A DNA stretch of 64,000 nucleotides from Edaphobacter aggregans DSM 19364 (GTDB lineage: Bacteria > Acidobacteriota > Terriglobia > Terriglobales > Acidobacteriaceae), in NCBI RefSeq assembly GCF_000745965.1, contig NZ_KN050788.1, positions 175,713 through 239,712 on the forward strand, given 5' to 3'. This document shows, piece after piece, positions 9,444-54,898 of the stretch. The first letter of the stretch is position 1. Each line of letters begins with the position of its first letter. The notes beneath the pieces were generated by a model, which worked only from the letters and a program-made list of their open reading frames with translations, ran no database searches and was not told the origin of the DNA. The translations under genes and the position numbers were made by a program.

Positions 9444-9596
9444 AACCGCCTCCACCTGCAAGCCACGTCCTGCCCCGCAAGTGTACTCGCCTCCGGTGTC
9501 CCGCATCTGTACGAAATCACCGAGCCCTCGCCTTTCCTGCCCCTCCCGGAACAGCCGTGAAGTATGCTTCCCCAAGACCCCGCCGGACCCTCATTC

Positions 9597-38764: not shown

Positions 38765-39816
38765 GGCGCCTCCTTGCTCACAGGATGCAGTCCTCGCAGC
38801 ACGCCATGCAGCTTCATAAACTGCTCAGGCGACATGGCCTCTGTGCGCTCCAGTATCAAGCGCGCGCGATCGTCCGATTGCCGCGCCTCGCGCTTCTCTT
38901 CTTCGGTCATCGTCAGAATTCTCAGTGAAAGAATCTCGTCGATCTCCGTCCCGTCGAACAATGCGCCCGTGCTCTCTGGCGCGATCTGCGGATAGTCATA
39001 AAGAATGATCGGTGAGGACAGCATCGTATCGCGGTCTCCCTCCTCGCCCACCAACACCGGCCACGTGCCCCGATTCGTACACTCAGCTACCAAATCCCGC
39101 ATCGCCTCCGGAGGATCGAGCATGGAGAGGAACTTCCCGCCTTCCAATGTGAGGATCGTGTGCGCAGACACAAGCGAATACATCAACGCATCCGCCCGGC
39201 TCTCACCTTGCTGAGGTTCAAAGGACGTTAGATTCTGAACCTCTGCTGCAACCTTGAACACTCCCTGGCCACAGTGCTTCCAATCAATATTCAGCGAACC
39301 CGACACCGTCTCCCACGCACGAATCACGATGCCCACGATCCAGCCGTCCTCATCGCGCAGAGGTTCAAGCTCTCTCCCCGAGGGAAACTCGAACGACGTC
39401 GACTGCTGGTCTGGAGTTCCATACTGAGTGGGAGCGACTACCTCCCGCTCCACCGCCTCCTGCCAAGTCACAAACGTCTGCCCATTGACGTCGAGGTTCC
39501 CGACTTCCTCAAATCCACGCTCCATCACCTCACAAAGTTCGCGAACGGGAGAGCCAAGCCTTCCAACGGACCGATTGACGATCTGCAGAAACCGCACCTT
39601 CGCGCCGAGCCGCGCCGATGAGTCGCCTTCAAAGAGGCACTCTGTCTGCATCCACCATTCCTCTGAGCCACTCTGCGATTCGCTGTACGGCCGCGGGCAA
39701 AGAACCCCAAAGTTCCAGCGCTGCTGGTTCTTTACCGCCGACGCACGATACGGATACAGCATGTAGCCCTCGTACAGCACGGCCTCCGCAATCTTCTCCA
39801 CACGGGCAAGGTTCAT
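38761..39816 (-). CDS. Conserved hydrogenase-operon protein, 351 aa, unknown function
   Basis: The 351-residue protein begins MNLARVEKIAEAVLYEGYMLYPYRASAVKNQQRWNFGVLCPRPY, followed by mixed beta/alpha sequence with no signal peptide or membrane helix and few cysteines. I do not know a characterised homolog. The position, with ATGA overlaps on both sides (the DUF6084 gene before, the protease after), marks it as an integral part of the operon, as for the other unknowns of group 1h loci. Confidence 0.85.
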   Translation of the reverse strand: MNLARVEKIAEAVLYEGYMLYPYRASAVKNQQRWNFGVLCPRPYSESQSGSEEWWMQTECLFEGDSSARLGAKVRFLQIVNRSVGRLGSPVRELCEVMERGFEEVGNLDVNGQTFVTWQEAVEREVVAPTQYGTPDQQSTSFEFPSGRELEPLRDEDGWIVGIVIRAWETVSGSLNIDWKHCGQGVFKVAAEVQNLTSFEPQQGESRADALMYSLVSAHTILTLEGGKFLSMLDPPEAMRDLVAECTNRGTWPVLVGEEGDRDTMLSSPIILYDYPQIAPESTGALFDGTEIDEILSLRILTMTEEEKREARQSDDRARLILERTEAMSPEQFMKLHGVLRGLHPVSKEAP

Positions 39817-40460
39817 CGCCGCACCACATCTTCCACCGGCAACATCTCTTCAAGCACCTGCTCCCAAGTCGGTATTCCACGCTGCGTCTTGTATTGATAG
39901 AGCCGCTCGAACACGTCGCGACGCAGATTCAGCCAAGCGCTGTTGGGATAGTACGCGTCCATCATCTCGCGCCACACCTTGACTGGCAGCCTAAACTTCG
40001 TCTCCTGCTCCCACGAGATGGGTGCGACTTGCAGGACGTCATCCGTGCCGGCGTAGAAGACCATCCCACTGAACATCAGGTGAAGCGGAATCTCTCCCTC
40101 CGTGAGGCCCTCGAAATACTTCGTCGCCGCTACGTTGAAGTCGAACGTGCAGGGCACCATAAGCTCGACAAGGGTGGAGCCTTGAAATCCCGGCACGACA
40201 ACGTTCGCGTGCGTCCACAGCAGGCTGCGAAGCGTCTGGCTCCAGCGCTCCGGCTCGCCAAAGAGGTCGCGCATCCGGCGCTGCTCGGCTTCTGTATAGC
40301 GTCGCCGCGTCACATCAATCTGGATCTGGCAACGCAGCACAACCGAGTGAATCCTCTCTGCCGCACGAGCGCTTTCAATGCGCAGCCGGAACGCAAGCGT
40401 AGGCGCTGCAGCATACGGAACAACCACCGCCTCCTCGACCTTGAAGCTCAGGTCAGGCAT
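39813..40460 (-). CDS. DUF6084-like hydrogenase-operon protein
   Basis: The 215-residue protein begins MPDLSFKVEEAVVVPYAAAPTLAFRLRIE and has a beta-rich layout with VVLRCQIQIDVTRRRYT, VPCTFDFNVAATKYFEGL and DDVLQVAPISWEQE. I assign it to DUF6084 on the strength of this pattern and its place between DUF5947 and the 351-aa protein. It is cytoplasmic, with unknown function. It starts inside the DUF5947 stop region (eight-base overlap). Confidence 0.8.
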   Translation of the reverse strand: MPDLSFKVEEAVVVPYAAAPTLAFRLRIESARAAERIHSVVLRCQIQIDVTRRRYTEAEQRRMRDLFGEPERWSQTLRSLLWTHANVVVPGFQGSTLVELMVPCTFDFNVAATKYFEGLTEGEIPLHLMFSGMVFYAGTDDVLQVAPISWEQETKFRLPVKVWREMMDAYYPNSAWLNLRRDVFERLYQYKTQRGIPTWEQVLEEMLPVEDVVRR

Positions 40461-41115
40461 CGCCCCCTCCACCCACGATATCCGCGCGATCTCTCAACTC
40501 GGAGAAGTACCGCGCAATCTCGGTCCAGACTTCGGAGCCGCCAGAGAGCCCCTTCCAATTCGCCCGGATCAGCCCCACGAGCCGATAGCAGTCATCGATC
40601 GGAGCAATATAGTACTCCTCCGCACGAGACACATCATGCGCATGCCCGACACGGTTCACCAGCAGCGCCTCGATGTCGGGCCGCAGCTCTCTCAAAGTCG
40701 GATTCTCCTCCGCAATCTCCTCCCACGCATCGAGCGAAAGCAGCGATTCCACCGCTCCGGCCGGGCTCGGATAGAGCACGACCATTCGATCTTCCGTGCT
40801 CGAGCGGAAGAAGAACGCCATGTTGATCGGGATAAGCAAACCGTCCCACTGTGCGTCAGTCATTCGGAAGCCCGGCAGAAACTTTGCGCGTCTCGCAACA
40901 CGTCTGTATCTGCTTCCCGCCATTCCGTCAAAGAGCGTCGCACACGCCTCGCAGGCGCAAACGATCTGTCTTGTGGAAATCTCCACCAGATGCGGATGCT
41001 CCTGCGCTAGGCCAGCGCTGCACAGCTCGCAGCGTTCCTGAACGCGTCGCGGGCGCGCGAACTGCCGAAGCGCTGCGAACGTCCGATCCATCGTCGACGT
41101 GGTCTCAGTGGGCAT
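40453..41115 (-). CDS. DUF5947-like hydrogenase-operon protein
   Basis: The 220-residue protein has an N-terminal pair of cysteine motifs (CELC at about residue 29 and CACEAC near 53) that could hold zinc or an Fe-S cluster. A conserved helical part follows with RYRRVARRAKFLPGFRMTDAQWD and PIDDCYRLVGLIRANWKGLSGG. The pattern fits DUF5947 of group 1h hydrogenase loci. A role in electron transfer or assembly is possible, but no activity is known. It begins two bases after the NifU-like gene. Confidence 0.82.
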   Translation of the reverse strand: MPTETTSTMDRTFAALRQFARPRRVQERCELCSAGLAQEHPHLVEISTRQIVCACEACATLFDGMAGSRYRRVARRAKFLPGFRMTDAQWDGLLIPINMAFFFRSSTEDRMVVLYPSPAGAVESLLSLDAWEEIAEENPTLRELRPDIEALLVNRVGHAHDVSRAEEYYIAPIDDCYRLVGLIRANWKGLSGGSEVWTEIARYFSELRDRADIVGGGGDA

Positions 41116-41117
41116 GG

Positions 41118-41711
41118 TCAGCGGGCACCATCCTCCTCAAGATCGGCAGCAACCAGCACCGGCGCCTCTGCGGGTTGTTTCAGCAGACGCTCCAGCGGAA
41201 CGAAGCCGGAGACATCTTCGTCTTCCAACCCCAGGATCATCAGCGACGTAACATCCGGCGCCTGCTCGTAGATGGCTTCCTCCACAATTGCTCGCAGATT
41301 CTTAGCTGCTGAGCCGTGCACGTGGCCGGATGTTTGCAGCTGAAGCTGCACAGCCCCATCACGCACGCTGACGAGCTCCACCCTACTGTCGAACTTGCGC
41401 AGGCGCGAACCAACAGTTTCAAGCGCACGCAACACGCGCGTCTCGATGTCTTCCGGGTGGAGAGAGTACAGCAGCAGCAGGCTCCGAACAATGGGATCGC
41501 GTCCCAGCTTCGCAATCATCGCCTCACCCTCTGCTCCCGAGTCGAAGACGATCTCCATCATCCGTTCCAGCCCCGTGCCGTGAACCTCCATCAGCAGCTG
41601 AACCAGCTTCCGCGCCGATACACGCGAACCGCTCTCCTGCATCGGATCGAGTTCACCGACCAGCGCCCCAAGCTGCCGAACCTTCTCTTGGAACTCCCTT
41701 TCGCCAGCCAC
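41118..41711 (-). CDS. NifU-like protein without the CxxC iron-sulfur site
   Basis: The 197-residue protein has a helical N-terminal part and a C-terminal NifU-like domain (VQLQLQTSGHVHGSAAKNLRAIVEEAIYEQAPDVTSLMI). NifU scaffolds carry the cluster ligands as CxxC at the loop GxCxxCxxS; here that loop reads SGHVHGSAA, with no cysteine. Histidines may replace the ligands, or the domain may act in protein binding only. It starts with GTG at 41711 behind AAGGAGTGAC. It comes directly after hhyL and a short possible peptide gene. Confidence 0.85.
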   Translation of the reverse strand: MAGEREFQEKVRQLGALVGELDPMQESGSRVSARKLVQLLMEVHGTGLERMMEIVFDSGAEGEAMIAKLGRDPIVRSLLLLYSLHPEDIETRVLRALETVGSRLRKFDSRVELVSVRDGAVQLQLQTSGHVHGSAAKNLRAIVEEAIYEQAPDVTSLMILGLEDEDVSGFVPLERLLKQPAEAPVLVAADLEEDGAR

Positions 41712-41712
41712 G

Positions 41713-41799
41713 TCACTCCTTCTTAGAGCTTCGACGAGAACGAGAACGCAGCTCCCGATGAATCAAACAACACATCTCAGGCCTACACTTCACGCTCAT
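41713..41799 (-). CDS. Possible 28-aa peptide between hhyL and the NifU-like gene
   Basis: The frame codes MSVKCRPEMCC…, with three cysteines and an arginine/serine-rich end. It stops so that its last codons contain the AAGGAG ribosome binding site of the next gene. The start has no clear ribosome binding site. It could be a leader that couples translation, or chance. Confidence 0.3.
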   Translation of the reverse strand: MSVKCRPEMCCLIHRELRSRSRRSSKKE

Positions 41800-41809
41800 C
41801 GCATTCAAG

Positions 41810-43615
41810 TCAGGGCTGCTGCTGATGCTGCCCAAACATCGGAGAATGATGCGTTTCAAGGACCTTTCCATTCCCCAGGTACATATGCACACCGCAAGGC
41901 AGGCAAGGATCAAAGCTCCTCACCGCCCGCATGATGTCGATCCCTTTGAAGCTGTCCGGCCCGTTCTCTTCGAAGATCGGCGTGTTCTGTGCCGCGTCTT
42001 CATACGGTCCGGGAGTTCCATAAATATCGCGCGGACTCGCGTTCCACGGCGTCGGAGGATACGGATGGTAGTTCGCGATCTTGTGATTGCGAATAACGAC
42101 ATGATGCGACAACACGCCGCGAACGGCCTCGTGGAAGCCGCATCCGATACTCTCTTCCGGAACCTTGAAGTCGCTCCAGGTCTTCGTTCTTCCGGCGTGG
42201 AGTTCAGCAAGCGCCTTCTCCGCAAAGTGAAGCGCCGCAGCCGCCGCATAGGCCTGGAAGTACGTGCGCGCGCGATCGCGCTCAATCGCGTTGCTCCACT
42301 GGGGAATCTTCCACTCCAGTTCTACTTCTGGCAGGGTCATCGTCTTCGGGAGGTAGATCTTCACACTCTGCCCTGTGGCCTTCACATAGCCAATATCCAC
42401 GACGCCGGCCAGCGCCGTCGCCCAGAAGCGCGCAATCGGCCCGCCGCCCGTGTCGAGCGCGAGATAGTCCTTCGTGCGCTTGTCATACCACCGCGGCGAC
42501 ATCACCCACGTGTACTTGCCCGCGAAGTCCCGCTTCTGTGGCTTCGGAAACGTACTCTGATTCCACGGATGCCGCTGATCCACCGGATTGCCCAGCGGAT
42601 CGTTCTTCACGAAGGTCTCTGCGTTCTGCCAGTCGTCGTAGTACGAACTGCCCAGCAGAATGCGGATATTCAGATTGATGTCCACCAGGTCCGTCGTCAC
42701 CAGCTCCCCATCCACAACGACCCCGGGAGTGACAAACATCCCCCGGCCCCAGTCGGTCATCTTCGCGTACGTGTAGTCGCACACATCCGGGTTGTTGAAC
42801 GAACCCCAGCACCCAAGCAGAATTCGCCGACGCCCGACCTCTTCATACCCCGGAAGCGCCTGGTAGAAGAAGTCGAACAGATCGTCATGCAGCGGCACAA
42901 CCTTCTTCATAAACTCGACATACTTCATTAGCCGCACGATGTAGTCAGTGAAGAGCTGAACCGTCGCCACCGTACCTACTCCACCGGGATAAAGCGTCGA
43001 AGGATGCACGTGACGCCCTTCCATCAGGCAGAACATCTCGCGGGTCATGCGGCTCATCTGAAGCGCTTCGCGGTAGAACTCTCCCGTGAAGGGATTCAGC
43101 GCAGTCATGATGTCCGAGATCTTGCGATAGCCATGCAGGCTCGCATGCGGCGACTCCGTATTCAGCGCCTTCTCCCACACGCCTGGGTTCGTCTCCTTCA
43201 CCATCTTTTCGCAGAAGTCCACGCCTACCAGGTTGTCCTGAAAGATGTTGTGGTCGAACATGTACTCCGCCGCTTCGCCAAGATTCACGATCCACTCCGC
43301 AATCGGCGGAGGCTTCACGCCAAACGCCATATTCTGCGCATACGTCGCGCACGTGGCGTGGTTGTCCCCACAGATGCCGCAGATGCGGCTCGTAATGAAG
43401 TGCGAGTCTCGCGGGTCCTTCCCCTTCATAAAGATGCTGTATCCGCGAAAGATCGAAGACGTGCTGTGGCACTCCGCGACGCGGCGCGTGCCGAAGTCGA
43501 TCTTCGTGAAGATTCCGAGGCTCCCCACAATCCGTGTAATCGGATCCCAGTTCATCTCCACTAACTGCCCATGCTTCTCGGCGACTTGTCTCTCTTCCGC
43601 AGCAAGCGTGCCCAT
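41810..43615 (-). CDS. hhyL: Group 1h [NiFe]-hydrogenase large subunit
   Basis: HhyL holds the NiFe active site. The 601-residue protein has the L1 motif RICGICGDNHATC (Cys79, Cys82) and the L2 motif DPCLPCGVH (Cys571, Cys574; His577), followed by a 24-residue tail that the operon endopeptidase should remove. Landmarks such as NWDPITRIVGSLGIF, EGRHVHPSTLYPGGVG and ALDTGGGPIARFWATALAG match the high-affinity, oxygen-tolerant group 1h (group 5) enzymes that oxidise atmospheric H2. It follows hhyS by 24 bases. The enzyme is cytoplasmic, probably membrane-associated through partner proteins. Confidence 0.97.
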   Translation of the reverse strand: MGTLAAEERQVAEKHGQLVEMNWDPITRIVGSLGIFTKIDFGTRRVAECHSTSSIFRGYSIFMKGKDPRDSHFITSRICGICGDNHATCATYAQNMAFGVKPPPIAEWIVNLGEAAEYMFDHNIFQDNLVGVDFCEKMVKETNPGVWEKALNTESPHASLHGYRKISDIMTALNPFTGEFYREALQMSRMTREMFCLMEGRHVHPSTLYPGGVGTVATVQLFTDYIVRLMKYVEFMKKVVPLHDDLFDFFYQALPGYEEVGRRRILLGCWGSFNNPDVCDYTYAKMTDWGRGMFVTPGVVVDGELVTTDLVDINLNIRILLGSSYYDDWQNAETFVKNDPLGNPVDQRHPWNQSTFPKPQKRDFAGKYTWVMSPRWYDKRTKDYLALDTGGGPIARFWATALAGVVDIGYVKATGQSVKIYLPKTMTLPEVELEWKIPQWSNAIERDRARTYFQAYAAAAALHFAEKALAELHAGRTKTWSDFKVPEESIGCGFHEAVRGVLSHHVVIRNHKIANYHPYPPTPWNASPRDIYGTPGPYEDAAQNTPIFEENGPDSFKGIDIMRAVRSFDPCLPCGVHMYLGNGKVLETHHSPMFGQHQQQP

Positions 43616-43639
43616 CGTTGGCTCCTTTTCCGTCTTCCT

Positions 43640-44704
43640 TCAGTAGGAACTTGGGTGATATCCCGTCGTCAGCTCGGCGCGTGGATGCCGCCACTTCGGC
43701 TCTTTGTTCACCGTGTCATTTGTCAGCGTCCGCAGAGCGCGAATTGCCTTGCCGTACGCTCCCACCACCGTGCTCGATATCTTCGAGCCCGGCGGCTCGT
43801 CCATAAACGGCATAAACTTATCGGGGAAGCCAGGCATCGTGCAGCCAATGCAGATGCCACCCACATTAGGACAGCCGCCCAGACCCGCCATCCAGCCGCG
43901 CTTCGGCACGTTGCAGTTCACCACCGGCCCCCAGCACCCAAGCTTCACAATGCACTTGGGCGAGCTATACGATTCAGCGAAGTCACCCTGCTCGTAGTAC
44001 CCCGCGCGATCGCAGCCCTCATGCACTGTCTTGGCGAACAACCACGTCGGCCTCAGCTGATCGTCAAGCGGAATCATCGGAGCAAGGCCGGCAACCTGGT
44101 ACAGCAGATACAGCACCGTCTCCATGAAGTTGTCCGGCTGCACCGGACACCCCGGAACGTTCACGATGGGAAGCCCTGCCTTTGACTTCCAGTCCCAGCC
44201 CAGATAATCGGCCAGCCCCATCGCCCCGGTCGGATTGCCCTCCATCGCGTGGATGCCGCCATACGTTGCGCACGTGCCGGCAGCCACAACAGCAAGCGCC
44301 TTCGGACTGAGCCGATCAATCCACTCCGTCGTCGTAATCGGCTGGCCCGTGCTCGGATTCGTCCCCACTGCCGCCCAGTAGCCCTCTCGCTTGATCTTCT
44401 CGTTTGGAATCGAGCCTTCCACGACGAGAACGAACGGATCCAGCCTTCCCTGCTCGGCGAGATAGTAGAAGTTCAAAAAGTCGCCACCGTTCTCGTACGC
44501 CAGCACAGGATTGTGCAGATGAACCTTCGGAAGTCCTGGGATTGCACCCAGCAGCACATCCTCGATGCTCGGCTGTGTCGCCGCAGTGACCGATACCGAA
44601 TCACCATCGCACCCCAACCCAGCCGTAATCCACACGATGTGGACCTCCGCCACCGCTGGCTCCTTCTGAGTGATCCGCCCGTAAGGCACACGTTCCGCTG
44701 TCAT
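43640..44704 (-). CDS. hhyS: Group 1h [NiFe]-hydrogenase small subunit
   Basis: HhyS is the electron-transfer subunit with three Fe-S clusters. The 354-residue protein has no Tat signal, as expected for group 1h. The proximal cluster motif GLGCDGDSVS (Cys32, Asp35) replaces the usual CxxC by CxxD, the three-Cys/one-Asp coordination known from the Ralstonia eutropha actinobacterial-type enzyme. AAGTCATYGGIHAMEGNPTG, VPGCPVQPDNFMET, HEGCDRAGYYEQG, KLGCWGPVVNC and GGCPNVGGICIGCTMPGFPDKFMPF supply the other ligands. It ends …WRHPRAELTTGYHPSSY. The ATG at 44704 follows GAGGAGAGCCAGCTT. A quasi-palindrome lies about 160 bases upstream. Confidence 0.97.
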   Translation of the reverse strand: MTAERVPYGRITQKEPAVAEVHIVWITAGLGCDGDSVSVTAATQPSIEDVLLGAIPGLPKVHLHNPVLAYENGGDFLNFYYLAEQGRLDPFVLVVEGSIPNEKIKREGYWAAVGTNPSTGQPITTTEWIDRLSPKALAVVAAGTCATYGGIHAMEGNPTGAMGLADYLGWDWKSKAGLPIVNVPGCPVQPDNFMETVLYLLYQVAGLAPMIPLDDQLRPTWLFAKTVHEGCDRAGYYEQGDFAESYSSPKCIVKLGCWGPVVNCNVPKRGWMAGLGGCPNVGGICIGCTMPGFPDKFMPFMDEPPGSKISSTVVGAYGKAIRALRTLTNDTVNKEPKWRHPRAELTTGYHPSSY

Positions 44705-44863
44705 AAGCTGGCTCTCCTCTCGAGACCTGCCTCGTGTTCGCAGACATCGACGGCGCAGCTCCGGACACAAGCCGCACGATCGAACGAGCCATAACAACAG
44801 ACGCGGAAGTCCATTCACAAGCAGGACAGACCCTATTTTGTCTTCAGAGAACTACTCATGCCG

Positions 44864-44884
44864 CTACCGGGGAATCCCTGATAG
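44864..44884. promoter_or_regulatory. Quasi-palindromic 21-bp site before hhyS
   Basis: The sequence CTACCGGGGA followed by ATCCCTGATAG reads nearly the same on both strands (16 of 21 positions). It lies in the 204-base gap between the response regulator stop and hhyS, and is a candidate operator for a dimeric regulator, possibly the neighbouring LuxR-type protein. The minus-strand core CAGGGATTCCC resembles the core GGGATTTC found before aspA and aspT. Confidence 0.45.
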
Positions 44885-44908
44885 GCACAGAGCAGCAAAC
44901 CCAGTCCT

Positions 44909-45601
44909 TCACTCCCGGATCGCGGATTGAATCGCATGCTGAACAAGCTCGCGCCCGCTGCGGAGTGACAACTTGTCCTTGATGTGCGCCTGGTAGGTCT
45001 CCACCGTCTTGATGCTTAGGTGCAGCTTCTCGGCGATCTGCCGTGTGCTGCGCGCCTCGCCGATCAGGCGAAACACCTCAAGCTCACGATCCGACAGCGT
45101 CGAAAACTCGGAGTTCATTTTCGCGGTCGAGCCGCCACTGATGTACTCGTGTAGCAGCTTGTTCGCCATTCGGTCGCTCAGGTAGATCTCCCCATTCAGA
45201 ATGCGCCGCACCGCCACCAGCACCTTCTCCGTGGCCTCCTGCTTCATGATGTAGCCATTTGCTCCTGCCCGCAGCGCGCGTTCCGCATAGATCGACTCCT
45301 CATGCATCGAGAGAATCAGCACCGGAAGGTCCGGATATAGCCCGCGAAGCTCCTTCAGCATATCCAGCCCGTCGGGGCCGTTCAGTGAGATGTCCGCAAT
45401 TAGGATGTCCGGTCGCTTCGCTGCGATCGCCTTCATCGCTGACTGCGACTCTTCCGCCTCGCCGCAGACAACCAGGTCCGGCTCCCGGTTGATCATCAGC
45501 GCCAGCCCCTGGCGCAGCAAAGGATGATCGTCCACCACGAAGACAGTCTTCTTCCTCACTCGCGCACTCGAATGCGGATTCGTCGACTCACCAGCCCGCA
45601 C
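44909..45601 (-). CDS. LuxR/NarL-type response regulator
   Basis: The 230-residue protein has a receiver domain (TVFVVDDHPLLRQGLALMI; phosphoacceptor Asp70 in DILIADISLNGPDG; Lys in YIMKQEA) and a C-terminal LuxR helix-turn-helix (FSTLSDRELEVFRLIGEARSTRQIAEKLHLSIKTVETYQAHIKDKL). It should bind DNA as a dimer after phosphorylation. The start is GTG 45601, behind GGAGGAATAGTAGC, four bases after the kinase stop, so the two are coupled and are partners. Lying between the kinase and hhySL, it is the likely regulator of the hydrogenase genes. Confidence 0.95.
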   Translation of the reverse strand: MRAGESTNPHSSARVRKKTVFVVDDHPLLRQGLALMINREPDLVVCGEAEESQSAMKAIAAKRPDILIADISLNGPDGLDMLKELRGLYPDLPVLILSMHEESIYAERALRAGANGYIMKQEATEKVLVAVRRILNGEIYLSDRMANKLLHEYISGGSTAKMNSEFSTLSDRELEVFRLIGEARSTRQIAEKLHLSIKTVETYQAHIKDKLSLRSGRELVQHAIQSAIRE

Positions 45602-45605
45602 GCTA

Positions 45606-47213
45606 CTATTCCTCCTTCACAGGAAAGATGCAGGTCACAACTGTTCCGCAGGCCGCGTATCGCCGCACATCCAGCGTCCCGCCGATCATGCCGGCCCGGT
45701 ACTTCATAATGTGAAGCCCCATTCCTTGTGAACTCGCAGCGCCTTCCACGATGCCTCTCCCGTCGTCCCGGATCGTCAACGTGCCGCGGCCCTGCTCCGC
45801 AGCCAGCTGAATCGTAATGTTCTGCGCCGCACCATGCTTGATCGCGTTATTCACCGCCTCCTGCGCAATGCGATAAAGATGCGTACCCATCGAGTCATCC
45901 CCGATCAGCACAGGCCGTTCGCACTGAAACCGGCAGGATACACCAAACAAATCCTCGACTTCAGCTGCCCAAAGCTGCAACGCCGACATCAAACCTTGCG
46001 AATCGGAGACCACTGGAAGCAGACCCCGCGCCAGCTCGCGGCTCTTATGAATCGCTTCGTTCACCAGCTTTACGATCTTCGCCGCCTCCTCCGCCTCCGC
46101 TCTATTCTTCTCCACCAGCTTCGCCTCGTGCACCTTGGCCATAAACGCGATCCCCGTCAGATGCTGGCCGAGCCCATCATGTAGATCCTGCCCAATCCGC
46201 CGTTGCTCTCGCGCGCTGATATCCAGAATCGCCTTCTCCAGTTGCTTCCGTTCCGTGATGTCGATGCCCGTCGCAATAATGTAGTTCGAAGTGTCTCCAC
46301 TGCCCGGCAGCAGCTTGCTCGTCCACGCGATCAGCCGCTGATGGCCATGCCGTGTCATCCAGCAGCTCTGGTACTCCTGCGGAAGAAGGCCCGTACGCAT
46401 CACTTCGAAGGTCTGCCTGAAGCGCTGAGCCTCTTCTCCCGCCAGAAACAGATCCCAAAGGCATCGACCCTGAACCTCTTTCATCGAATATCCCGTCGTA
46501 ACCTCGCACGCCGGATTGAATCGTAGGATGCGCCCCTCTGTATCCAACACCACCACCAGTGCTCCCACCGTGTCGAGAATCGCTGAGACGAAGTTGCGCT
46601 CCTCCTGCAACTCCTCCTCGATCCGCTTCAGATCCGAGATATCGAAGGCCACCCCATGAATGAACCACGGCCTGCCGTCGTCCCTTCGCATCATCTTCGC
46701 GTCGCAGTGAAACCAGATCACGCGTCCATCGCGAGCAATCACCCGATACGCCGAGCGCAGCGGCTTCCCAGAGAGAAACATCTCCGCCGCCTCCAGGCTC
46801 CACCGTTGCTTGTCATCGGGGTGAATGTGCTGGTACCACCGCACCGGGTCCTCCAGCCACTCCTCGCGCGAGTACCCGAGTACTGCCTCGATCTGCGGGC
46901 TCACATAGGCCTCGCTGATCCCGCGGTCGAGATAAGCCATAAACACAACCGCCGGTATCTGCTCCAGCAACGCGCGATACTTCGCCTCAAGGTTCGGCGC
47001 GCGCCCATCCCCGTCCACGGAAAACTCCTTCAGCACACGACCCCGCCCCGTAGCGGGATCGGAAAAGATACTCGCCAGCCCCAGCAGCACCGACTCTGCT
47101 TCAGCAAGATCCGGCAACCCCTCACCCGCCGCTTTGCACGGCTCTGCGTTGCGCGGCTCCGGCCCGCTGCTTCTGTTTCGCCGCCCCTGCCTTGTTTGAA
47201 CCAACGAGGACAT
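45606..47213 (-). CDS. PAS-domain sensor histidine kinase (HisKA_3 type)
   Basis: The 535-residue protein is soluble, with no membrane segment. It has an N-terminal region of about 70 residues and two PAS domains (about residues 75-197, with VSPQIEAVLGYSREEWLEDPVRWYQHIHPDD; and 208-325). A HisKA_3 module follows (QRRIGQDLHDGLGQHLTGIAFMAK, His345), then an ATPase domain (EAVNNAIKHG, DDGRGI). This is the NarX/DegS-type kinase that pairs with LuxR regulators. ATG 47213 has a GGAG site; an in-frame TTG at 47273 would overlap the end of hhyS2 by four bases. The close linkage to hhyS2 suggests its signal comes through that subunit or its redox state. Confidence 0.93.
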   Translation of the reverse strand: MSSLVQTRQGRRNRSSGPEPRNAEPCKAAGEGLPDLAEAESVLLGLASIFSDPATGRGRVLKEFSVDGDGRAPNLEAKYRALLEQIPAVVFMAYLDRGISEAYVSPQIEAVLGYSREEWLEDPVRWYQHIHPDDKQRWSLEAAEMFLSGKPLRSAYRVIARDGRVIWFHCDAKMMRRDDGRPWFIHGVAFDISDLKRIEEELQEERNFVSAILDTVGALVVVLDTEGRILRFNPACEVTTGYSMKEVQGRCLWDLFLAGEEAQRFRQTFEVMRTGLLPQEYQSCWMTRHGHQRLIAWTSKLLPGSGDTSNYIIATGIDITERKQLEKAILDISAREQRRIGQDLHDGLGQHLTGIAFMAKVHEAKLVEKNRAEAEEAAKIVKLVNEAIHKSRELARGLLPVVSDSQGLMSALQLWAAEVEDLFGVSCRFQCERPVLIGDDSMGTHLYRIAQEAVNNAIKHGAAQNITIQLAAEQGRGTLTIRDDGRGIVEGAASSQGMGLHIMKYRAGMIGGTLDVRRYAACGTVVTCIFPVKEE

Positions 47214-47269
47214 CGCCTGCTCCAGCCGTCCTGTTTCTTTGACCGGGTCTCCCCCATCACCGCGTTGTC

Positions 47270-48313
47270 TCAAGCGTCGCCACGCGTCTCCGCAGAGTTG
47301 CGCCGATTCCTCCAGCTTGGCTCCTTATTCAGCGACGCCTGCGTAAACCGCCGCAGCGCCTGGATCGCGCGCCCATACGTCTGGACCGCCGCCGACGACA
47401 AAAGTGAGCCCGGAGGCTGATCCATGAACGGCATAAACTTGTCCGGAAATCCCGGCATGGTGCATCCAATGCAGATGCCGCCAACGTTCGGGCATCCGCC
47501 AATTCCCCCCATCCAGCCGCGCTTGCCCACGTTGCACTGCACCACCGGCCCCCAGCATCCGAGCTTCACAATGCACAGCGGCGAACCATACTCCTCGGCA
47601 AATTGCGCCTGCTCGTAGTACCCCCCGCGGTCGCACCCTTCATGCAGCGTGCTGCCGAACAGCCACGCCGGACGCAGAGCATCATCCAGAGGAATCATCG
47701 GCGCCCGCCCCGCCGCCATGTTCAGCAGATACAACAGCGTCTCCATAAAATTATCCGGCTGCACCGGACACCCCGGTACGCAAACAATAGGAATGCCCGC
47801 CTTCGAGCGCCATCCCCAGCCCAGGTAGTCCGGCAACCCCATGCATCCCGTCGGATTCCCCTCCATTGCATGAATCCCGCCATACGTCGCACAGGTTCCC
47901 GCCGCAATCACCGCCCACGCCTTCGGTGCCAGCCGGTCAATCCATTCGCACGTCGTAATCGGCTGCCCCGTCGTCCGGTCCGTGCCCATCGACGCCCAGT
48001 AGCCCTCATCCTTGTTGCCCTCATCCGGCACAGAACCTTCCAACACGAGCATGAAAGGCTGCAACTTCCCCTCCGCCGCCAGATGGAAGGCCTTCACAAA
48101 CTCTTCCCCATTCTCTAGGGCGAGAAACGGATTATGAAATCGCACCTTCGGAATCCACGGCAGCGCTCCCATAACAATGTCCTCGATGCTCGGCTGCATC
48201 GCGGCCGTCATCGCGATCGTGTCCCCATCGCAGCCCAGTCCCGCGGTGATCCACAGAACATCGATCTCAGCGATAGGTTGCGATCTGTCTTCTGCGCGAC
48301 GAGGAGGTCCCAT
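47270..48313 (-). CDS. Second group 1h hydrogenase small subunit, linked to a two-component system
   Basis: The 347-residue protein is a close paralog of the operon's own HhyS, with long identical blocks (AAGTCATYGGIHAMEGNPTG, VPGCPVQPDNFMET, GGCPNVGGICIGCTMPGFPDKFMPFMD). It keeps every Fe-S ligand, including the CxxD proximal motif GLGCDGDT (Cys28, Asp31). Its tail differs: it ends NKEPSWRNRRNSAETRGDA and lacks the ELTTGYHP end of HhyS. No second large subunit is present. It may pair with HhyL as an alternative subunit or form part of an H2 or redox sensor with the kinase that follows at once. The signal path is inference. Confidence 0.95.
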   Translation of the reverse strand: MGPPRRAEDRSQPIAEIDVLWITAGLGCDGDTIAMTAAMQPSIEDIVMGALPWIPKVRFHNPFLALENGEEFVKAFHLAAEGKLQPFMLVLEGSVPDEGNKDEGYWASMGTDRTTGQPITTCEWIDRLAPKAWAVIAAGTCATYGGIHAMEGNPTGCMGLPDYLGWGWRSKAGIPIVCVPGCPVQPDNFMETLLYLLNMAAGRAPMIPLDDALRPAWLFGSTLHEGCDRGGYYEQAQFAEEYGSPLCIVKLGCWGPVVQCNVGKRGWMGGIGGCPNVGGICIGCTMPGFPDKFMPFMDQPPGSLLSSAAVQTYGRAIQALRRFTQASLNKEPSWRNRRNSAETRGDA

Positions 48314-48901: not shown

Positions 48902-50338
48902 TTAAAACTGTAATTGAATACGGGTCTGGAAGAACTGCGTGTTGCCTTTGAGATTGAATCGGTCAAGGCGTCCATAGCCATAGGCCATCTCCAGCCGCAC
49001 ATTTTCGGAAAGGTACCAGTTGACCATCGGTGTGACTCTCCCGAACGTGCCTCCATGCACATTGCCGCCGTTAAGATCGGTATAGGAGTATCGGAGCACT
49101 AATTCCCAGGCCCCTGGTCCTCCGCTGAACACGGTCCTCAACGGATCTATGTCCTTGAAATAACCACCGACGGTGTTGTAGGGGCGCGTCTCCCCGGTTA
49201 CCAACCACGTCGCAACCACGTCGCCTCCATGAAACATAGGATCGCCTGCTGACTTGGAGGCGACATTCTGGAAGTAGTACTCGCTACCCAGGAGCAAAGA
49301 CCTTCTACGGTAGTAGACCTCATATCCCTGACTGTGTGAGCTGCTTGCGGGGAATGAGCCCGTATCGATGAAATATGGCGCGATAAATGCTTCGGGCCGT
49401 GATCTGAGTCTGAGTTGCCCATCTACAGGCTTGCCATAGCGGAAGTTAGAGCCAATGTGAAACAGCGTGCCCTCCTCCTCTGAATGCACCGGAAGCCACG
49501 CAAGTCGTACGACCTCCTGGCTGGAATACGAGGAAAACGACTGTCCCTTAGACGCGACATCGTTGAAGTAGCCGATGTTCCACAGAAAGCCATGCTTTTT
49601 AGAATAACCAAGCCACTTGATACCGTCGGCCAGCAGCGGGATGCTCGCGTCGCTCATCGTGAATCTCTCCATCGTCCAGCCGTCATAGCCGACCATGACC
49701 TTGTTGAGAGAGAACCCCTCTTTTTGACGCCCAATGAAGAAATAGCTCAAGATCTTCGGAACTCCGAACATGACACCTGTTTGCCGCAGAAACCAGGAGT
49801 GAGTGGGGGCGTCGTACATGACCCCTGCGCACCAGGTTGTGGGCAGCTCGATACTGGGGAGTTTTCCACCCATAATGAAACGAAAATCACGGAGCTTCCC
49901 GTCGGGGGAGAGTTTTATCTGTTCTTTGCTCTCCTGGTCCTGAGCGAACGCCGCGTAATCAACTAGAAAGCCGGCGCCGACCCGGATGGTGAAGTGTGGC
50001 CCGTGATACTCATTCCAATGCACAAGTTCTCGCCGCCGCAGTAGAGGCTCGGCTGCCTCGAGTTGGTTCTCGAGATTGGGCGGGGGACCCTGGGTTTGCG
50101 CTGGAGTGGGGTTCTGAGCCGTGGTCTGCGCTGGAGTAGTGGTCTGCGCTGGAGTAGTGGGAGGAGGCGCCTGGGTCGAACTCTGAGCTGTGTCTTGAGC
50201 CGGCTCCTCCGTTGAATCGAGTGCCGGCGCAGGACGTGGACCGTCGGAGGATTGAGCGTGGGAGGGCTGCGGTCCAGCCATGACAGCGATCGCAAACTGT
50301 GTCAGCAAAAGCGCCCTTATGATGACACTCATAAACAT
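48902..50338 (-). CDS. Outer-membrane porin, OprO/OprP-like
   Basis: The protein of 478 residues has a signal peptide (MSVIIRALLLTQFAIAVMAGPQPSHAQ), a low-complexity proline/threonine/glutamine linker with repeats of TPAQTT (about residues 45-85) and then a beta-barrel that ends in QFFQTRIQLQF. A final phenylalanine is the usual signal for outer-membrane insertion. The barrel shows alternating aromatic strands as in phosphate-selective porins O and P. It follows the asparaginase gene by only 19 bases in the same direction, so it may bring substrates such as asparagine to the periplasm. Two adjacent starts, 50338 and 50332, are possible. Confidence 0.85.
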   Translation of the reverse strand: MFMSVIIRALLLTQFAIAVMAGPQPSHAQSSDGPRPAPALDSTEEPAQDTAQSSTQAPPPTTPAQTTTPAQTTAQNPTPAQTQGPPPNLENQLEAAEPLLRRRELVHWNEYHGPHFTIRVGAGFLVDYAAFAQDQESKEQIKLSPDGKLRDFRFIMGGKLPSIELPTTWCAGVMYDAPTHSWFLRQTGVMFGVPKILSYFFIGRQKEGFSLNKVMVGYDGWTMERFTMSDASIPLLADGIKWLGYSKKHGFLWNIGYFNDVASKGQSFSSYSSQEVVRLAWLPVHSEEEGTLFHIGSNFRYGKPVDGQLRLRSRPEAFIAPYFIDTGSFPASSSHSQGYEVYYRRRSLLLGSEYYFQNVASKSAGDPMFHGGDVVATWLVTGETRPYNTVGGYFKDIDPLRTVFSGGPGAWELVLRYSYTDLNGGNVHGGTFGRVTPMVNWYLSENVRLEMAYGYGRLDRFNLKGNTQFFQTRIQLQF

Positions 50339-50357: not shown

Positions 50358-51428
50358 TTAGTACGTAGTGAAGATCTGTTGAATCTCCGAGGCCGGACGC
50401 GGCTTCAGCAGCACTAGCGACAGAAGGATGCGCGACTTCTGTGGATTCAGTTCATCCGAGGCGACAAAGCCAAGTTCGTCATCATTCAACTCCACGTTGC
50501 GGCCAACAAGTCCTGTGGGCACTCGGCTGCTTCGAACTACGACGACACCCTTCTTCACCGCCCGCGCAGCGGCGTCCACGGAAACTTTATTCATGTTTCC
50601 GTTGCCGACGCCGGCGATAACAATGCCTTTGGCGCCATTCGCGGCGCTGGCGTCAATCAGATCTGGAGACATATCCACATCGGCAAAGATAATGTCGACG
50701 CGGGGAAGCTTAGTGACTTGAGCGACGTCGAACTCGCTAGCCGTCGTGTGCTTCCATGGTGGAGTGTTATAGAAATCGCTCTTACCGTAAGAGACGACAC
50801 CGACCAGTCCGCGCAAGGGGGACAAGAAGGTTTGAACGTCGGTGGTACTGGTCTTCGTCAATGAGTGTGCTGCGTGAATATGATCATTCATGATCACAAG
50901 GACTCCGCGACCTTTGGCCCTGGGATCACCGGCCACGGCCACAGCGTTATACAGATTGAGCGGACCGTCAGCACTGACAGCCGTCGACGGTCTCATGGAG
51001 CCCACCAGGACAACCGGTTTGTCGCTCTTCACGACCAGATTGAGAAAGTAGGCCGTCTCTTCCATGGTGTCTGTGCCGTGAGTGATCACGATGCCGTCGA
51101 CATCATTGGTCGGCAGAAGTTCATTGATGCGTTTGGCGACCTTCAACATGATGTCGAATGACATATCCTGCGATCCGACGTTTGCGATCTGCTCACCTTT
51201 GATGTTGGCGAGGTCCTTGATCCCCGGAACGGCATTCACCATCGCATCAATCGTGACGGCTCCAGAGGTGTAAGCGGATTGCGTGCCGGTGGCGGCGGCA
51301 CCTGCAATCGTGCCACCGGTTGCGAGGATGACGATGTTCGGCTTCTTACCCTGGGTCACAGCCTGCTGGCAAGGAACGATGATGACCACAATAAGGAACA
51401 ACGCCCAGTGTCTGTAGGATCGCTTCAT
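50358..51428 (-). CDS. ansB: Periplasmic L-asparaginase (type II)
   Basis: The enzyme hydrolyses asparagine to aspartate and ammonia. The protein of about 356 residues has a signal peptide (MKRSYRHWALFLIVVIIVPCQQAVTQ) and the two catalytic threonine motifs: ILATGGTIAGA (nucleophile) and IVITHGTDTMEETAYFL. It also has VLVGSMRPSTAVSADGPLNLYNAV and a C-terminal domain with GKSDFYNTPPWKHT. Export marks it as type II. Next to it lie an exported aspartase and an AspT-like antiporter, so it probably starts an extracytoplasmic asparagine pathway. Confidence 0.94.
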   Translation of the reverse strand: MKRSYRHWALFLIVVIIVPCQQAVTQGKKPNIVILATGGTIAGAAATGTQSAYTSGAVTIDAMVNAVPGIKDLANIKGEQIANVGSQDMSFDIMLKVAKRINELLPTNDVDGIVITHGTDTMEETAYFLNLVVKSDKPVVLVGSMRPSTAVSADGPLNLYNAVAVAGDPRAKGRGVLVIMNDHIHAAHSLTKTSTTDVQTFLSPLRGLVGVVSYGKSDFYNTPPWKHTTASEFDVAQVTKLPRVDIIFADVDMSPDLIDASAANGAKGIVIAGVGNGNMNKVSVDAAARAVKKGVVVVRSSRVPTGLVGRNVELNDDELGFVASDELNPQKSRILLSLVLLKPRPASEIQQIFTTY

Positions 51429-51479
51429 AACCACTCCCTCCGAAGCGCACGGCGGCGCAAATGCTCTTCTAATCCAGAA

Positions 51480-53000
51480 CTAGTTCGGTTTGTACTTGGA
51501 TTTATCCAGATTGGTCAGCTTGGCCGGGTCCAGCAGCTCTTTGATCTGAGCGTCGGTAAGGATGTGCTTCTCCCGAATGATCTCGATAATGCCTTTGCCA
51601 CTCGAGTAGGCCTCTTGTGCCAGTTCAGTCGCCTTGTCGTAGCCCAGAACAGGATTGAGCGCAGTGACGATGCCCACCGTCGTCTCCATGTAGTGCTCCA
51701 ACTGTTTCTCGTTCAGCGTGATGCCGTCAACGCACTTCGTGCGGAAAAGGATTGAGGTATTGAAGAGCAGGCTTTGCGATTCAATGACCGCAAGACCTTC
51801 GACCGGTTCGTACGCGTTGAGCTGCAACTGTCCGCTGTGAGCGGCCAGCGTTACGACAAAATCATTGCCCATCACGCGAAACGCGACCAGGTTCATCACC
51901 TCGGGAACGACCGGATTCACCTTTCCGGGCATGATCGAAGAGCCCGGCTGCAACGCCGGTAAGTTAATCTCGAACAATCCTGCGCGCGGTCCCGATGTCA
52001 ACAGAATCAGGTCACTCGAGATCTTTGAAAGCTTGATAGCAAGGCTCTTCAGCGCAGAGGAGTAGATGACGAACCCTTGCTGGTCCCAGGTAGCGGCCAA
52101 CATGTCAGGCGCGGGTACGATCGGCTTGTTGAGAAGCTTCGACAGATGCTCCGCAAACTTCTGATCGTAGCCTTTCGGGACATTGATGCCCGTACCAATC
52201 GCAGTCGCCCCCATATTCTCCGTGTACAAAGCCTTCTCGGAATCCCGCAGCAACTGAATCTCATTGTCTAGTGATGACGCGTAGGCGTAAAATTCCTGTC
52301 CCACCGTCATGGGCACGGCATCCTGCAGTTCAGTGCGGCCCATCTTGACGATCTCGATGTACGCATTTCCCTTCGCGCGAAATGACGCCGAAAGCTTCTG
52401 CAGCTCTTCAATCAGCTTGCCGTTTCGCAGAATGAACGCCACCTTGATTGCTGTAGGGTACGAATCGTTGGTGGACTGGGACATATTCAGGTCATCGTGC
52501 GGCTCAAGAAACTGGTACTCGCCCTTTTTGTGACCTGACAGCTCCAGACCGATGTTGGCGAGCACCTCGTTCGCATTCATATTCGTCGAGGTGCCGGCGC
52601 CTCCCTGGTACCAATCCACCTGAAATTGGTCATGATATTTTCCGGCGAGCACAGCATTGCATGCCTTCTCGATCGCATCCAGCCTCTCCTTTTTCATAGC
52701 CCCCACGTCATAATTTGCTTGCGCCGCCGCCAGCTTCACCAGAGCCCACGCTTCAACGAAGCCCGGGTAGTGATTGATTGCCACGCCTGAGAGCTGAAAA
52801 TTCTCGAGAGCTCTTTGGGTTTGCACGCCATAATAAGCGTCGGCTGGAACCTGTTTTTCTCCCAGAAGGTCCTTCTCTGTCCGCGTCTTGCCTGCAGTCG
52901 ATGGCGTTGTCTGCTGGGCCCACAGCAAATTGCTCATGCTGGACACAGCAAACGCAACTACAGCGGAAACCTTTAGCATTTGTAAAAGGGACGCTCGCAT
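51480..53000 (-). CDS. aspA: Aspartate ammonia-lyase with a signal peptide
   Basis: Aspartase converts aspartate to fumarate and ammonia. The core matches the family over its length: ERDLLGE-type start (EKDLLGEKQVPADAYYGVQTQRALENF), WYQGGAGTSTNMNANEVLAN, DDLNMSQSTNDSYPTA and the catalytic loop GSSIMPGKVNPVVPEV. Unlike the cytoplasmic enzyme, it starts with MRASLLQMLKVSAVVAFAVSSMSNLLWAQQ, a good signal peptide, so it should be periplasmic. Neighbouring ansB is also exported. ATG 53000 is preferred; 53024 adds MSGSNRRR. It has a two-block upstream element shared with aspT. Confidence 0.93.
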   Translation of the reverse strand: MRASLLQMLKVSAVVAFAVSSMSNLLWAQQTTPSTAGKTRTEKDLLGEKQVPADAYYGVQTQRALENFQLSGVAINHYPGFVEAWALVKLAAAQANYDVGAMKKERLDAIEKACNAVLAGKYHDQFQVDWYQGGAGTSTNMNANEVLANIGLELSGHKKGEYQFLEPHDDLNMSQSTNDSYPTAIKVAFILRNGKLIEELQKLSASFRAKGNAYIEIVKMGRTELQDAVPMTVGQEFYAYASSLDNEIQLLRDSEKALYTENMGATAIGTGINVPKGYDQKFAEHLSKLLNKPIVPAPDMLAATWDQQGFVIYSSALKSLAIKLSKISSDLILLTSGPRAGLFEINLPALQPGSSIMPGKVNPVVPEVMNLVAFRVMGNDFVVTLAAHSGQLQLNAYEPVEGLAVIESQSLLFNTSILFRTKCVDGITLNEKQLEHYMETTVGIVTALNPVLGYDKATELAQEAYSSGKGIIEIIREKHILTDAQIKELLDPAKLTNLDKSKYKPN

Positions 53001-53104
53001 ACGCCTCCTGTTCGACCCACTCATCTGTTAACGCAAGCTCACCAATAGCTCCGTTCCGGAGCGCGACCATCGCGTTATTGGACTATCCGGCCCTGACTTT
53101 GCAA

Positions 53105-53151
53105 GAACACTTCTACCGGGTAGGGCAGATCAAAACAACTAGTGAAATCCC
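53105..53151 (-). promoter_or_regulatory. Two-block element upstream of aspA
   Basis: In the minus orientation GGGATTTCACTAGTTGT is followed after exactly 19 bases by TAGAAGTGTTC. The same two blocks with the same spacing lie before aspT (54979-55025). Here the first block sits in an inverted repeat AACTAG-N8-CTAGTT (53137-53156). It lies about 105-150 bases upstream of the aspA ATG. Confidence 0.65.
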
Positions 53152-53188
53152 TAGTTCGCCCAGAAAGACTGAGATAGAGGCTAGATCG

Positions 53189-54898
53189 CTAGCTCCTATG
53201 CACCAGGAGCACAATGATCGAACCCCACAGCGCGAATAACACCTTGCCGACTGCATAGCTTACGCCATAGCCGAGAACCGGCACGCGACTTTCGGCTTTC
53301 TCCAGAAGGGCCGCTAAAGCAGGAGAGGACGTAGAACTTCCTGCACAGATGCCGAGCAGGATGCCTGGATGCAATCGGAAGAGAAAACGACCGGTGAAGA
53401 TCGTGATGATGAATGGAACCGCGCATGACAGGACGCCAGCAATGAGAAGTACCACACCGGTTGTGCGGACTCCGTGTACAAAGCCCGGGCCAGCGTTGAT
53501 CCCAATTGAGGCGACGAATGCTGCCAGGCCAAGCGAATCCAATAACCACACTACTGGTTCGGGTACTCTGCCGAAGACAGGCCGTAGCGACTGCACCCAC
53601 CCCATAACAAGCGCAGCCAGGAGAACCCCGACAGGGAGGCCGAATCCAAGGCTGACTTTTCCCACATGCAATGCAGGTAAACCGATCAGTCCTCCGATCA
53701 CGATGATCAGACAAAGCGGCGCGAGATCAGTCACATTGGACGCGCGCTGGACGGAACCGAGGCGCTCCGCCACGCGGTCGACGTGTCGCCGGGCACCGAT
53801 CAGCGTCAAAACATCGCCACGTTCGAGTACAACCCCCTCTCCAAGGGGCAGTTCTTCTCCCCCGCGCGTTACCTTGCGAATGAAGACTCCCCTGGTGGGA
53901 ACTTCCTTCTCCAGAACGGCAACAATCTCGGCAAAGGTCCGATGCTGCAGATCCTTCCGCTCCAGCACGTGATCCAGTGCTATCGCCGGAACATCCAATA
54001 ATGCGGGCTCGTCGATCTCGTAACGCTGCAACGGATTGCTGGAACTTCCGAGTACCTTCTGGCGTCCCGATAAAACGATACGATCCCCCGCCTCAAGTCG
54101 AAGATGGGGGTTGGCATCTATTATCTCCCCCTCTTTCTTCACCCTTTCTACGAACACGCGTTCAGGCGAGAAAGCGTGCTCCAATTCGGCGACGACCTCA
54201 CCATGCATGCTCTCCGGGAGCTTGTAGGCCCGCATAACAAACTGCTTGTAGGCGGAAACCACTCCGGGCTCCTCCGTCTTCATGCCCAACTCCTGCTCCA
54301 ACTTTTGGCATTCGGCGCGAAGGTCGATCCCTAGCATCCAAGGACCCATTCGAATGAGGACTACAAATGTTGTAAACAGCCCGACCAGGTAGGTAACCGC
54401 AAAAGCCACGGTCATGTCTTCGGTAAAGGCGTGACGCAAATCATCGCCAATCGCCAGCTTTCCGATCGCATCATTCGCCGTTCCCATCGTCTCTGATGAA
54501 TGGCCACTTCCAGCGAGGAGCCCCGCTGCCGTTCCAGCATCGAATCCAAGGACACGCGCTACCGCATATACCGTCAACAATCCGGTTCCAGCAAACAGGA
54601 TGGCAAGGACCACCTGGGGAAGCGCATTTCGGCGCAGGCCTCGGAAGAACTGAGGCCCTGCTTTATAACCGGCAGAGAATAGAAACAAAAGAAAGAAGGC
54701 GCTGCTGAGCGCAGTTGGGATCGTGATGCCAAGCTGCCCAACTGCAACGCCCGCCAGGAGGCATCCGACGACCGGTCCTAACTGGAAAGACCCTATCCGA
54801 ACCCGCCCGAGGAAATAACCGGCAGCCAACGCGAGAAAGAGGGCCAATTCAGAATGGCTTTGCAGAGCAACTCGTATCCATTCGATCGCCCTTGTCAT
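53189..54898 (-). CDS. aspT: AspT-type aspartate:alanine antiporter
   Basis: The 569-residue membrane protein belongs to the AAE (AspT/YidE/YbjL) family. It has two halves of five to six helices each (LALFLALAAGYFLGRVRIG… and VGLPALHVGKVSLGFGLPVGVLL…) around a hydrophilic centre of two TrkA-C-like domains (residues 210-385). A TrkA-C domain usually binds nucleotides. GLLAGSGHSSETMGTANDA and LGICAGSSTSSPALAALLE are the paired family signatures. It probably exchanges aspartate for another acid, and the gene context (aspA, ansB) supports this. It shares a two-block upstream element with aspA. Confidence 0.9.
   Translation of the reverse strand: MTRAIEWIRVALQSHSELALFLALAAGYFLGRVRIGSFQLGPVVGCLLAGVAVGQLGITIPTALSSAFFLLFLFSAGYKAGPQFFRGLRRNALPQVVLAILFAGTGLLTVYAVARVLGFDAGTAAGLLAGSGHSSETMGTANDAIGKLAIGDDLRHAFTEDMTVAFAVTYLVGLFTTFVVLIRMGPWMLGIDLRAECQKLEQELGMKTEEPGVVSAYKQFVMRAYKLPESMHGEVVAELEHAFSPERVFVERVKKEGEIIDANPHLRLEAGDRIVLSGRQKVLGSSSNPLQRYEIDEPALLDVPAIALDHVLERKDLQHRTFAEIVAVLEKEVPTRGVFIRKVTRGGEELPLGEGVVLERGDVLTLIGARRHVDRVAERLGSVQRASNVTDLAPLCLIIVIGGLIGLPALHVGKVSLGFGLPVGVLLAALVMGWVQSLRPVFGRVPEPVVWLLDSLGLAAFVASIGINAGPGFVHGVRTTGVVLLIAGVLSCAVPFIITIFTGRFLFRLHPGILLGICAGSSTSSPALAALLEKAESRVPVLGYGVSYAVGKVLFALWGSIIVLLVHRS

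Follow-up and report, generated by a model that had tools for sequence, protein, structure and literature searches.

A stretch of 64,000 nucleotides from Edaphobacter aggregans DSM 19364 (contig NZ_KN050788.1, positions 175,713 to 239,712), here called the window, carries a run of four genes, all on the minus strand, in which an aspartase-family ammonia-lyase with a predicted signal peptide is found together with an antiporter, a type II asparaginase and an outer-membrane porin. Judging from the sequence, the lyase and its conserved neighbours probably form a cassette for the breakdown of asparagine outside the inner membrane, by way of aspartate to fumarate. The features of the locus, with coordinates given as positions in the window, are as follows.

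53189-54898, minus strand: AspT/YidE-type antiporter (PF06826), upstream of the lyase
51480-53024, minus strand: aspartase-family ammonia-lyase (PF00206 and PF10415), 514 amino acids, or 506 from the likely true start at 53000
53004-53009, minus strand: AGGAGG, read from the sequence, which may serve the second lyase ATG as ribosome-binding site
Lyase, residues about 9-36: predicted Sec-type signal peptide
Lyase, from residue 48: catalytic domain
Lyase, GSSIMPGKVNP: SS-loop, the catalytic loop
50358-51434, minus strand: type II L-asparaginase (PF00710 and PF17763), with signal peptide
48902-50338, minus strand: OprO/P-type outer-membrane porin (PF07396), whose N-terminus looks signal-like by eye

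The intergenic gaps along the run from antiporter to lyase, asparaginase and porin are 164, 45 and 19 bases, and the lyase, asparaginase and porin alike begin with a hydrophobic leader. The lyase scores 304.3 bits against PF00206, 68.7 bits against PF10415 and 649.5 bits against the PRK12273 aspartase subfamily model (cut-off 510); a plain fumarase was rejected, as the fumC_II model gives only 448.9 bits and the motifs are GAGTS and GRTE, not GSGTQ and GRTH. The asparaginase lies well within TIGR00520 (448.7 bits, cut-off 314.3) and its ATG at 51428 is preceded by GGAGGG. The antiporter passes PF06826 and TIGR01625 and, at 543.4 bits, falls just short of the cut-off of 546.95 for TIGR03802, the AspT equivalog model; its membership of AspT is thus at family level only. 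The assembly (8.18 Mb in 345 contigs) has a contamination estimate of 7.2%, and a contaminant origin for the locus was considered and rejected because a 16S ribosomal RNA gene sits on the same contig as the cassette.

Start site and signal peptide of the lyase

The first ATG of the lyase reading frame, at 53024, has no obvious ribosome site upstream. The second, at 53000, is preceded three bases upstream by AGGAGG and retains the full signal peptide (MRASLLQMLKVSAVVAFAVSSMSNLLWA-QQ...), and the ATG of Met30, past the hydrophobic core, again has no obvious ribosome site. Signal peptides were called here with a home-made heuristic that looks for a hydrophobic 10-mer, net positive charge ahead of it and small residues at -3/-1; as controls, internal Met positions were called in 5 of 1307 cases and composition-shuffled N-termini in 94 of 1560. 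A scan of a genome collection found 116 relatives, the best 80 loci of which, about 61-84% identical to the window lyase, were retained. The initial annotation had read a signal peptide on the lyase and proposed a survey of related genomes for the same trait. The signal peptide is borne out and extends across the clade: of its 81 members (the 80 loci and the window) 78 receive a Sec-type call, as against none of 35 homologue rows, 33 of them distinct, of below 50% identity. One clade member (L077, around 7460-8918) has no visible signal peptide, which could be due to secondary loss or to an assembly fault.

Mean pairwise identity is 19% over the 20 residues preceding the domain but reaches 80% in the domain's own first 60 residues; what is conserved is thus the signal-peptide character and not its letters. 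Cleavage is predicted a median of 6 residues ahead of the domain motif, shortly enough that the mature chain would match a normal aspartase. Cysteines are fewer in the exported clade than in its sister group (median 4 and 11, respectively), but as a median of 4 also occurs in another, non-exported group, a loss of cysteines upon export is suggestive only.

It could be argued that the hydrophobic N-terminus is unused and that translation from a downstream start yields a cytoplasmic enzyme which works with AspT or Dcu, as known from E. coli and from Actinobacillus succinogenes, in whose three-gene set AspA is cytoplasmic (PMC10634366). Met30 of the window protein lies past the hydrophobic core, and an ATG is found past the core in 7 of the 78 called members, the window included. 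However, the other 71 have none, 59 of the 78 lack any ATG, GTG or TTG between core and domain, the signal-like N-terminus is found throughout the clade, and AGGAGG stands ahead of the leader-retaining ATG. We consider a cytoplasmic enzyme very improbable and reject a mis-called start; a true start downstream of the hydrophobic segment, the weak point named by the initial annotation, is not what the ribosome site at the 53000 ATG indicates.

Neighbouring genes and distribution of the clade

The neighbours were counted by tblastn across the 80 loci, on the same strand as the lyase. In 76 of them an asparaginase is found no further than 1 kb away, and among the 60 loci flanked by 4 kb or more to either side this holds for 59, so that the exported asparaginase which the initial annotation placed beside the lyase proves to be a near-constant partner. 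The four loci with no adjacent asparaginase are L040, L041, L094, in which the contig stops 96 bases past the match, and L067, in which the asparaginase is 3.3 kb off and on the opposite strand. A signal-like N-terminus is seen on 76 of 78 asparaginases, counting that of the window, and one of the two exceptions is a stretch of undetermined bases. Six catalytic positions, labelled by their E. coli counterparts, are invariant in 78/78; the E283-like position is variable (E in 57). A porin is found within 4 kb in 68 loci, and the porin of the window, suggested earlier, is confirmed by PF07396 even though it lies beyond the span then described.

Linkage to inner-membrane carriers is less regular. 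Within 4 kb, Dcu is present in 34 loci and DASS in 12, and any of Dcu, DASS or AspT in 39. The AspT-like antiporter seen in the window is indeed a PF06826 gene on the same strand, but its linkage is not conserved (1/80 loci), and AspT was therefore rejected as a core part of the cassette; in L043 and L057, two near relatives, lyase, asparaginase and porin follow the order of the window, without AspT. The families found among the neighbour representatives are PF03605/TIGR00770, PF00939/TIGR00785, PF04960, PF07396 and PF19577. One locus, L056 of Flavobacterium aquariorum (around 6554-9470), has AspT, a leaderless lyase, an exported lyase, an asparaginase, Dcu and a porin in a single run.

The pathway might serve mainly to free ammonia outside the cell, as a pH buffer or a nitrogen supply, rather than to feed fumarate inwards. 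Each asparagine would release two ammonia, 15 of the 80 loci have a glutaminase on the same strand no more than 5 kb away (the N-terminus of the representative from L095 looks signal-like by eye), and the authors of the A. succinogenes study also depict pH homeostasis among the roles of its asparagine/aspartate route (PMC10634366). Against this, the dicarboxylate-type carriers linked in 39 loci point to use of the carbon skeleton, and no ammonium carrier was found among the nine neighbour representatives scanned; we hold a mainly ammonia-releasing role to be rather unlikely. As a separate observation, an amidohydrolase lies within 5 kb in 8/80 loci, and glutaminases, amidohydrolases and DcaP-type porins adjoin the cassette in L046, L050, L054, L055, L073, L086, L088 and others; as the glutaminase and amidohydrolase representatives have signal-like N-termini by eye, this hints at a wider extracytoplasmic deamidation island.

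The 80 loci comprise 67 from Bacteroidota, 6 from Acidobacteriota, 4 from Pseudomonadota, 1 from Krumholzibacteriota and 2 unassigned; many are closely related Flavobacterium copies, and the exported rows collapse to 45 at 90% identity. A tree built from 93 mature domains places these 45 rows on one side of a branch with a Shimodaira-Hasegawa-like approximate likelihood ratio (SH-aLRT) support of 100, and the exported clade is again monophyletic in a wider tree, which holds 72 rows, 10 of them exported, and in which the marker residue of the active site was masked; both are quick trees without bootstrap, built without the N-terminus. The closest outside rows are leaderless Acidobacteriota proteins of 56-59% identity. 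Within the clade, L047 and L049 (Pseudomonadota) and L045 (Krumholzibacteriota) nest among the Acidobacteriota rows with support of 81-99, which suggests transfer between phyla. At the nucleotide level the window locus is 87% identical across 2178 bases to a locus of Acidobacteriaceae KBS 83 and 79% identical to a Steroidobacter locus.

The distribution of the exported clade is patchy. A homologue of at least 60% identity was found in 3 of 297 Acidobacteriota genomes (among them the window's own; one of the three matches is partial) and in 6 of 296 genomes of the phylum of a Flavobacterium genome (the centre genome included), while the other genomes searched in the window's own genus held only homologues of 44% identity or less. 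Plasmid-borne spread was considered and rejected, as all 326 matching plasmid records stay below 60% identity.

Fold and active site of the lyase

The AlphaFold2 model of the lyase has a predicted local distance difference test (pLDDT) score of 85.8 and consists of a leader helix (residues 4-36), a linker of which residues 37-43 are of low confidence (below 50 pLDDT), and then the aspartase fold. The solved aspartases 6wng, 3r6v and 1jsw match the model at 48-52% identity, with template modelling (TM) scores, normalised by query length, of 0.82-0.84; the best match is 6wng, the Elizabethkingia aspartase, at 52%. In an alignment of 82 exported members (the window, the 80 loci and L120), the motifs GSSIMPGKVNP, GAGTS, QSTND and GRT are invariant. 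These include the GAGTS Thr, STN, the GRT Thr and the Ser, Lys and Asn of the SS-loop, which we take, in part after PMC11744663, to be the carboxylate and catalytic contacts.

The exported proteins differ at the residue following GRT, which corresponds to His188 of AspB. This is Glu in 82/82 exported members (Glu232 in the window lyase), as opposed to Gln in 9/9 sister rows and 2/2 solved aspartases; fumarase-type rows carry His. Of the 62 non-exported rows, 5 likewise carry Glu, namely the distant L030 and L031, and L133, L143 and L147 of a group with long N-terminal extensions. A second reading, of 38 rows, shows Glu in each of the 6 leader-bearing rows and Gln in each of the 32 leaderless ones; this set excludes L126, in which the pattern was not matched, overlaps the rows compared above by L120 and 8 sister rows, and includes L200 and L201, whose domains are identical to scan loci and hence not independent. 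Further changes accompany the switch, as H178, E310, N337, R340 and V404, conserved in 26 or 27 of 27 Gln-type proteins, are mostly D, A, S, I and A in the exported clade; these 27 were picked by their Gln, so that a Gln-to-Glu count would be circular there, whereas the other positions are free of this. The joint loss of E310 and R340 would fit a lost salt bridge.

These replacements raise the question of whether the exported lyase applies the same elimination chemistry to another substrate, such as a substituted aspartate or an amide. His188 and Asn142 of AspB contact the amine group (PMC11744663), and the uniform Glu, together with the loss of the five positions conserved in the Gln-type proteins, would fit a changed specificity, as would the score of 597.9 bits against TIGR00839, the aspA equivalog, which is below its cut-off of 681.2. 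However, the presumed carboxylate and catalytic contacts are retained, Glu is not confined to exported proteins, and the near-constant neighbour, the asparaginase, yields exactly aspartate. Another substrate seems to us unlikely. The lyase, which presumably acts as an aspartase, is best placed in a divergent subfamily within the aspartase lineage, and not among the AspA equivalogs.

The other lyases of the host genomes were surveyed as well. Two further close homologues in the window genome have fumarase-like motifs (GSGTQ, GRTH), and no second aspartase-like lyase was found among the homologues identified, to which three weaker PF00206 matches (L004-L006) come in addition. A search for further lyases at E 1e-50 in 26 clade-carrying genomes gave only homologues of the GSGTQ/GRTH, fumarase type in 13, only a GSGTS/GRTH homologue in one (G352), with a motif like that of rows grouping with fumarases in the 93-domain tree, and no other homologue in one; the exported enzyme thus appears to be the only aspartase-like lyase in 15 of the 26. 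A further set of lyases (L011-L015, L019, L023, L193, L196 and others) carries GAGV-S-x-HMN and GRTHM-QDA, which differ from both the aspartase and the fumarase motifs.

The proposed route and its relation to known systems

The conservation across phyla of the signal peptide, the exported asparaginase and the porin makes an extracytoplasmic route from asparagine through aspartate to fumarate the best reading of these data. This agrees with the route put forward in the initial annotation, although its name of aspartase for the lyase must be qualified in view of the altered active-site residue. The signal peptides, the clade, the cassette, the active-site switch and the want of another aspartase-like lyase found in the window genome were all computed, and point to an enzyme that is probably periplasmic and acts on L-aspartate. 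Asparagine would enter through the outer-membrane porin and be split by the exported type II asparaginase to aspartate and ammonia. The lyase, secreted by Sec and then assembled in the periplasm, would convert the aspartate to fumarate and a second ammonia. An inner-membrane carrier, which may be Dcu or DASS in many relatives and AspT or the single SDF-family (DctA/GltP-type) carrier match in the window genome, would then import the fumarate, or aspartate that had not been split, and the fumarate could enter the tricarboxylic acid cycle or, without oxygen, serve fumarate respiration. In the window genome the cassette asparaginase is the single PF00710 match.

A number of findings weigh against this reading. 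Every signal-peptide call depends on the home-made heuristic, not on SignalP, and the heuristic missed three clade members (L049, L077 and L097), although in L049 and L097 a hydrophobic leader is visible by eye. The shortfall against the aspA equivalog and the presence of Glu in place of Gln or His at an amine-contacting position make a specificity for aspartate less certain. As regards the carriers, the window genome has no PF03605 (Dcu) match, AspT is linked in the window and scarcely anywhere else, and 41 of the 80 loci have no Dcu, DASS or AspT within 4 kb; 34 of these 41, many of them Flavobacterium, are among the 60 loci with long flanks. Finally, a GRTQ-type lyase without signal peptide coexists with the exported one in 9 of the 26 genomes, and a GRTHM-type lyase in 2.

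The closest known arrangement is the AnsB-AspA-DcuA cluster of A. succinogenes (Asuc_0140-0142), which in the available text has a periplasmic asparaginase and an AspA drawn in the cytoplasm (PMC10634366). It shares with the cassette the enzyme pair, the asparaginase (type II and predicted to be periplasmic in the window) and the probable fumarate product, and with many relatives of the cassette the Dcu carrier; the window has neither a leaderless AspA nor a Dcu nearby to match. In A. succinogenes, as far as that text goes, aspartate is imported and then deaminated inside, whereas the signal peptide of the window lyase implies that fumarate and ammonia would form outside. The unit aspA-dcuA-asparaginase of Sulfurospirillum multivorans (SMUL_2817-2819; PMC7755780) likewise shares the enzyme pair and the Dcu carrier with many of the cassette's relatives; the text consulted on it is silent as to where the enzymes are located. 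An asparaginase and an aspartase are also co-encoded for the same conversion in Bacillus subtilis ansAB and in the Corynebacterium glutamicum operon ansR-ansA2-aspA2-ansP, whose AnsP permease is essential for asparagine use; the latter has no outer-membrane porin part, and the term signal peptide occurs 0 times in the main text consulted (PMC9145765).

In fold, length of match (about 460 columns at 48-52% identity) and SS-loop the window lyase is like E. coli AspA (1jsw), Bacillus AspB (3r6v) and the Elizabethkingia enzyme (6wng). It is unlike these solved aspartases in its N-terminal signal peptide and in the Glu where they have Gln or His, and unlike the Gln-type aspartases in the replacement of H178, E310, N337 and R340. 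Aspartase is a large enzyme, tetrameric in the solved relatives.

No report of an exported aspartase was found in the open-access literature searched, with subscription journals mostly outside that search, in keeping with the remark of the initial annotation that no well-characterised periplasmic aspartase is known. A match to 'secreted aspartase' proved to concern the assay of enzymes that Candida strains secrete (PMC12016522). The closest hint of a contrary prior report is the listing, in the accessible part of PMC8708908, of Campylobacter jejuni AspA among targets of the periplasmic Dsb system, with no signal type given for AspA and Sec/SPII for the asparaginase. Aspartase is generally regarded as cytoplasmic, and models of asparagine use and fumarate respiration put aspartate deamination inside the cell (e.g., PMC10634366).

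What would be new, then, is that parts known from AnsB-AspA-DcuA recur here with the lyase moved outside. A wider scenario, to which we would give about even chances, is that an old lyase clade moved once to the periplasm, was re-tuned there through Gln to Glu and the other losses, and spread across phyla with an exported asparaginase, porins and often dicarboxylate carriers, so that nitrogen is stripped outside and only the carbon skeleton or electron acceptor imported. In that scenario the periplasmic route is the inverse of the AspA-DcuA logic of E. coli. A widespread exported clade would shift deamination outside and change the carrier and the nitrogen pool that count, and metabolic models of clade-carrying Bacteroidota and Acidobacteriota would be wrong at aspartate deamination. 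The clade would also show how a large enzyme has adapted to the periplasm. Its proteins would be easily mis-assigned as cytoplasmic by name, and the combination of a signal peptide with GRTE provides a sharp sequence marker.

With regard to the surroundings of the cassette, a promoter scan of the locus gave 5 promoter-like sites against 3.9 expected from shuffles, which is near chance level, and 13 terminator-like sites against 6.5 (standard deviation 3.0) in shuffles, mostly within coding sequence and not used as evidence. A [NiFe] hydrogenase region lies directly downstream on the same strand, and a PAS histidine kinase and a response-regulator-like gene, the regulator read by eye, stand between its two small-subunit genes:

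37940-48313, minus strand: [NiFe] hydrogenase region
41810-43615, minus strand: [NiFe] hydrogenase large subunit
43640-44818 and 47270-48313, minus strand: the two [NiFe] hydrogenase small-subunit genes

The aspartases with long N-terminal extensions are found both in Acidobacteriota (L131-L135, L137-L142, L144-L146 and L148) and in the Flavobacterium phylum (L204, L206, L207, L209, L212, L213, L215-L219 and L222). The extension is a cyclic-nucleotide-binding domain (PF00027) in both proteins tested, L132 and L144, with the others judged by the look or length of the N-terminus, and suggests that these extended aspartases are regulated by cyclic nucleotides.

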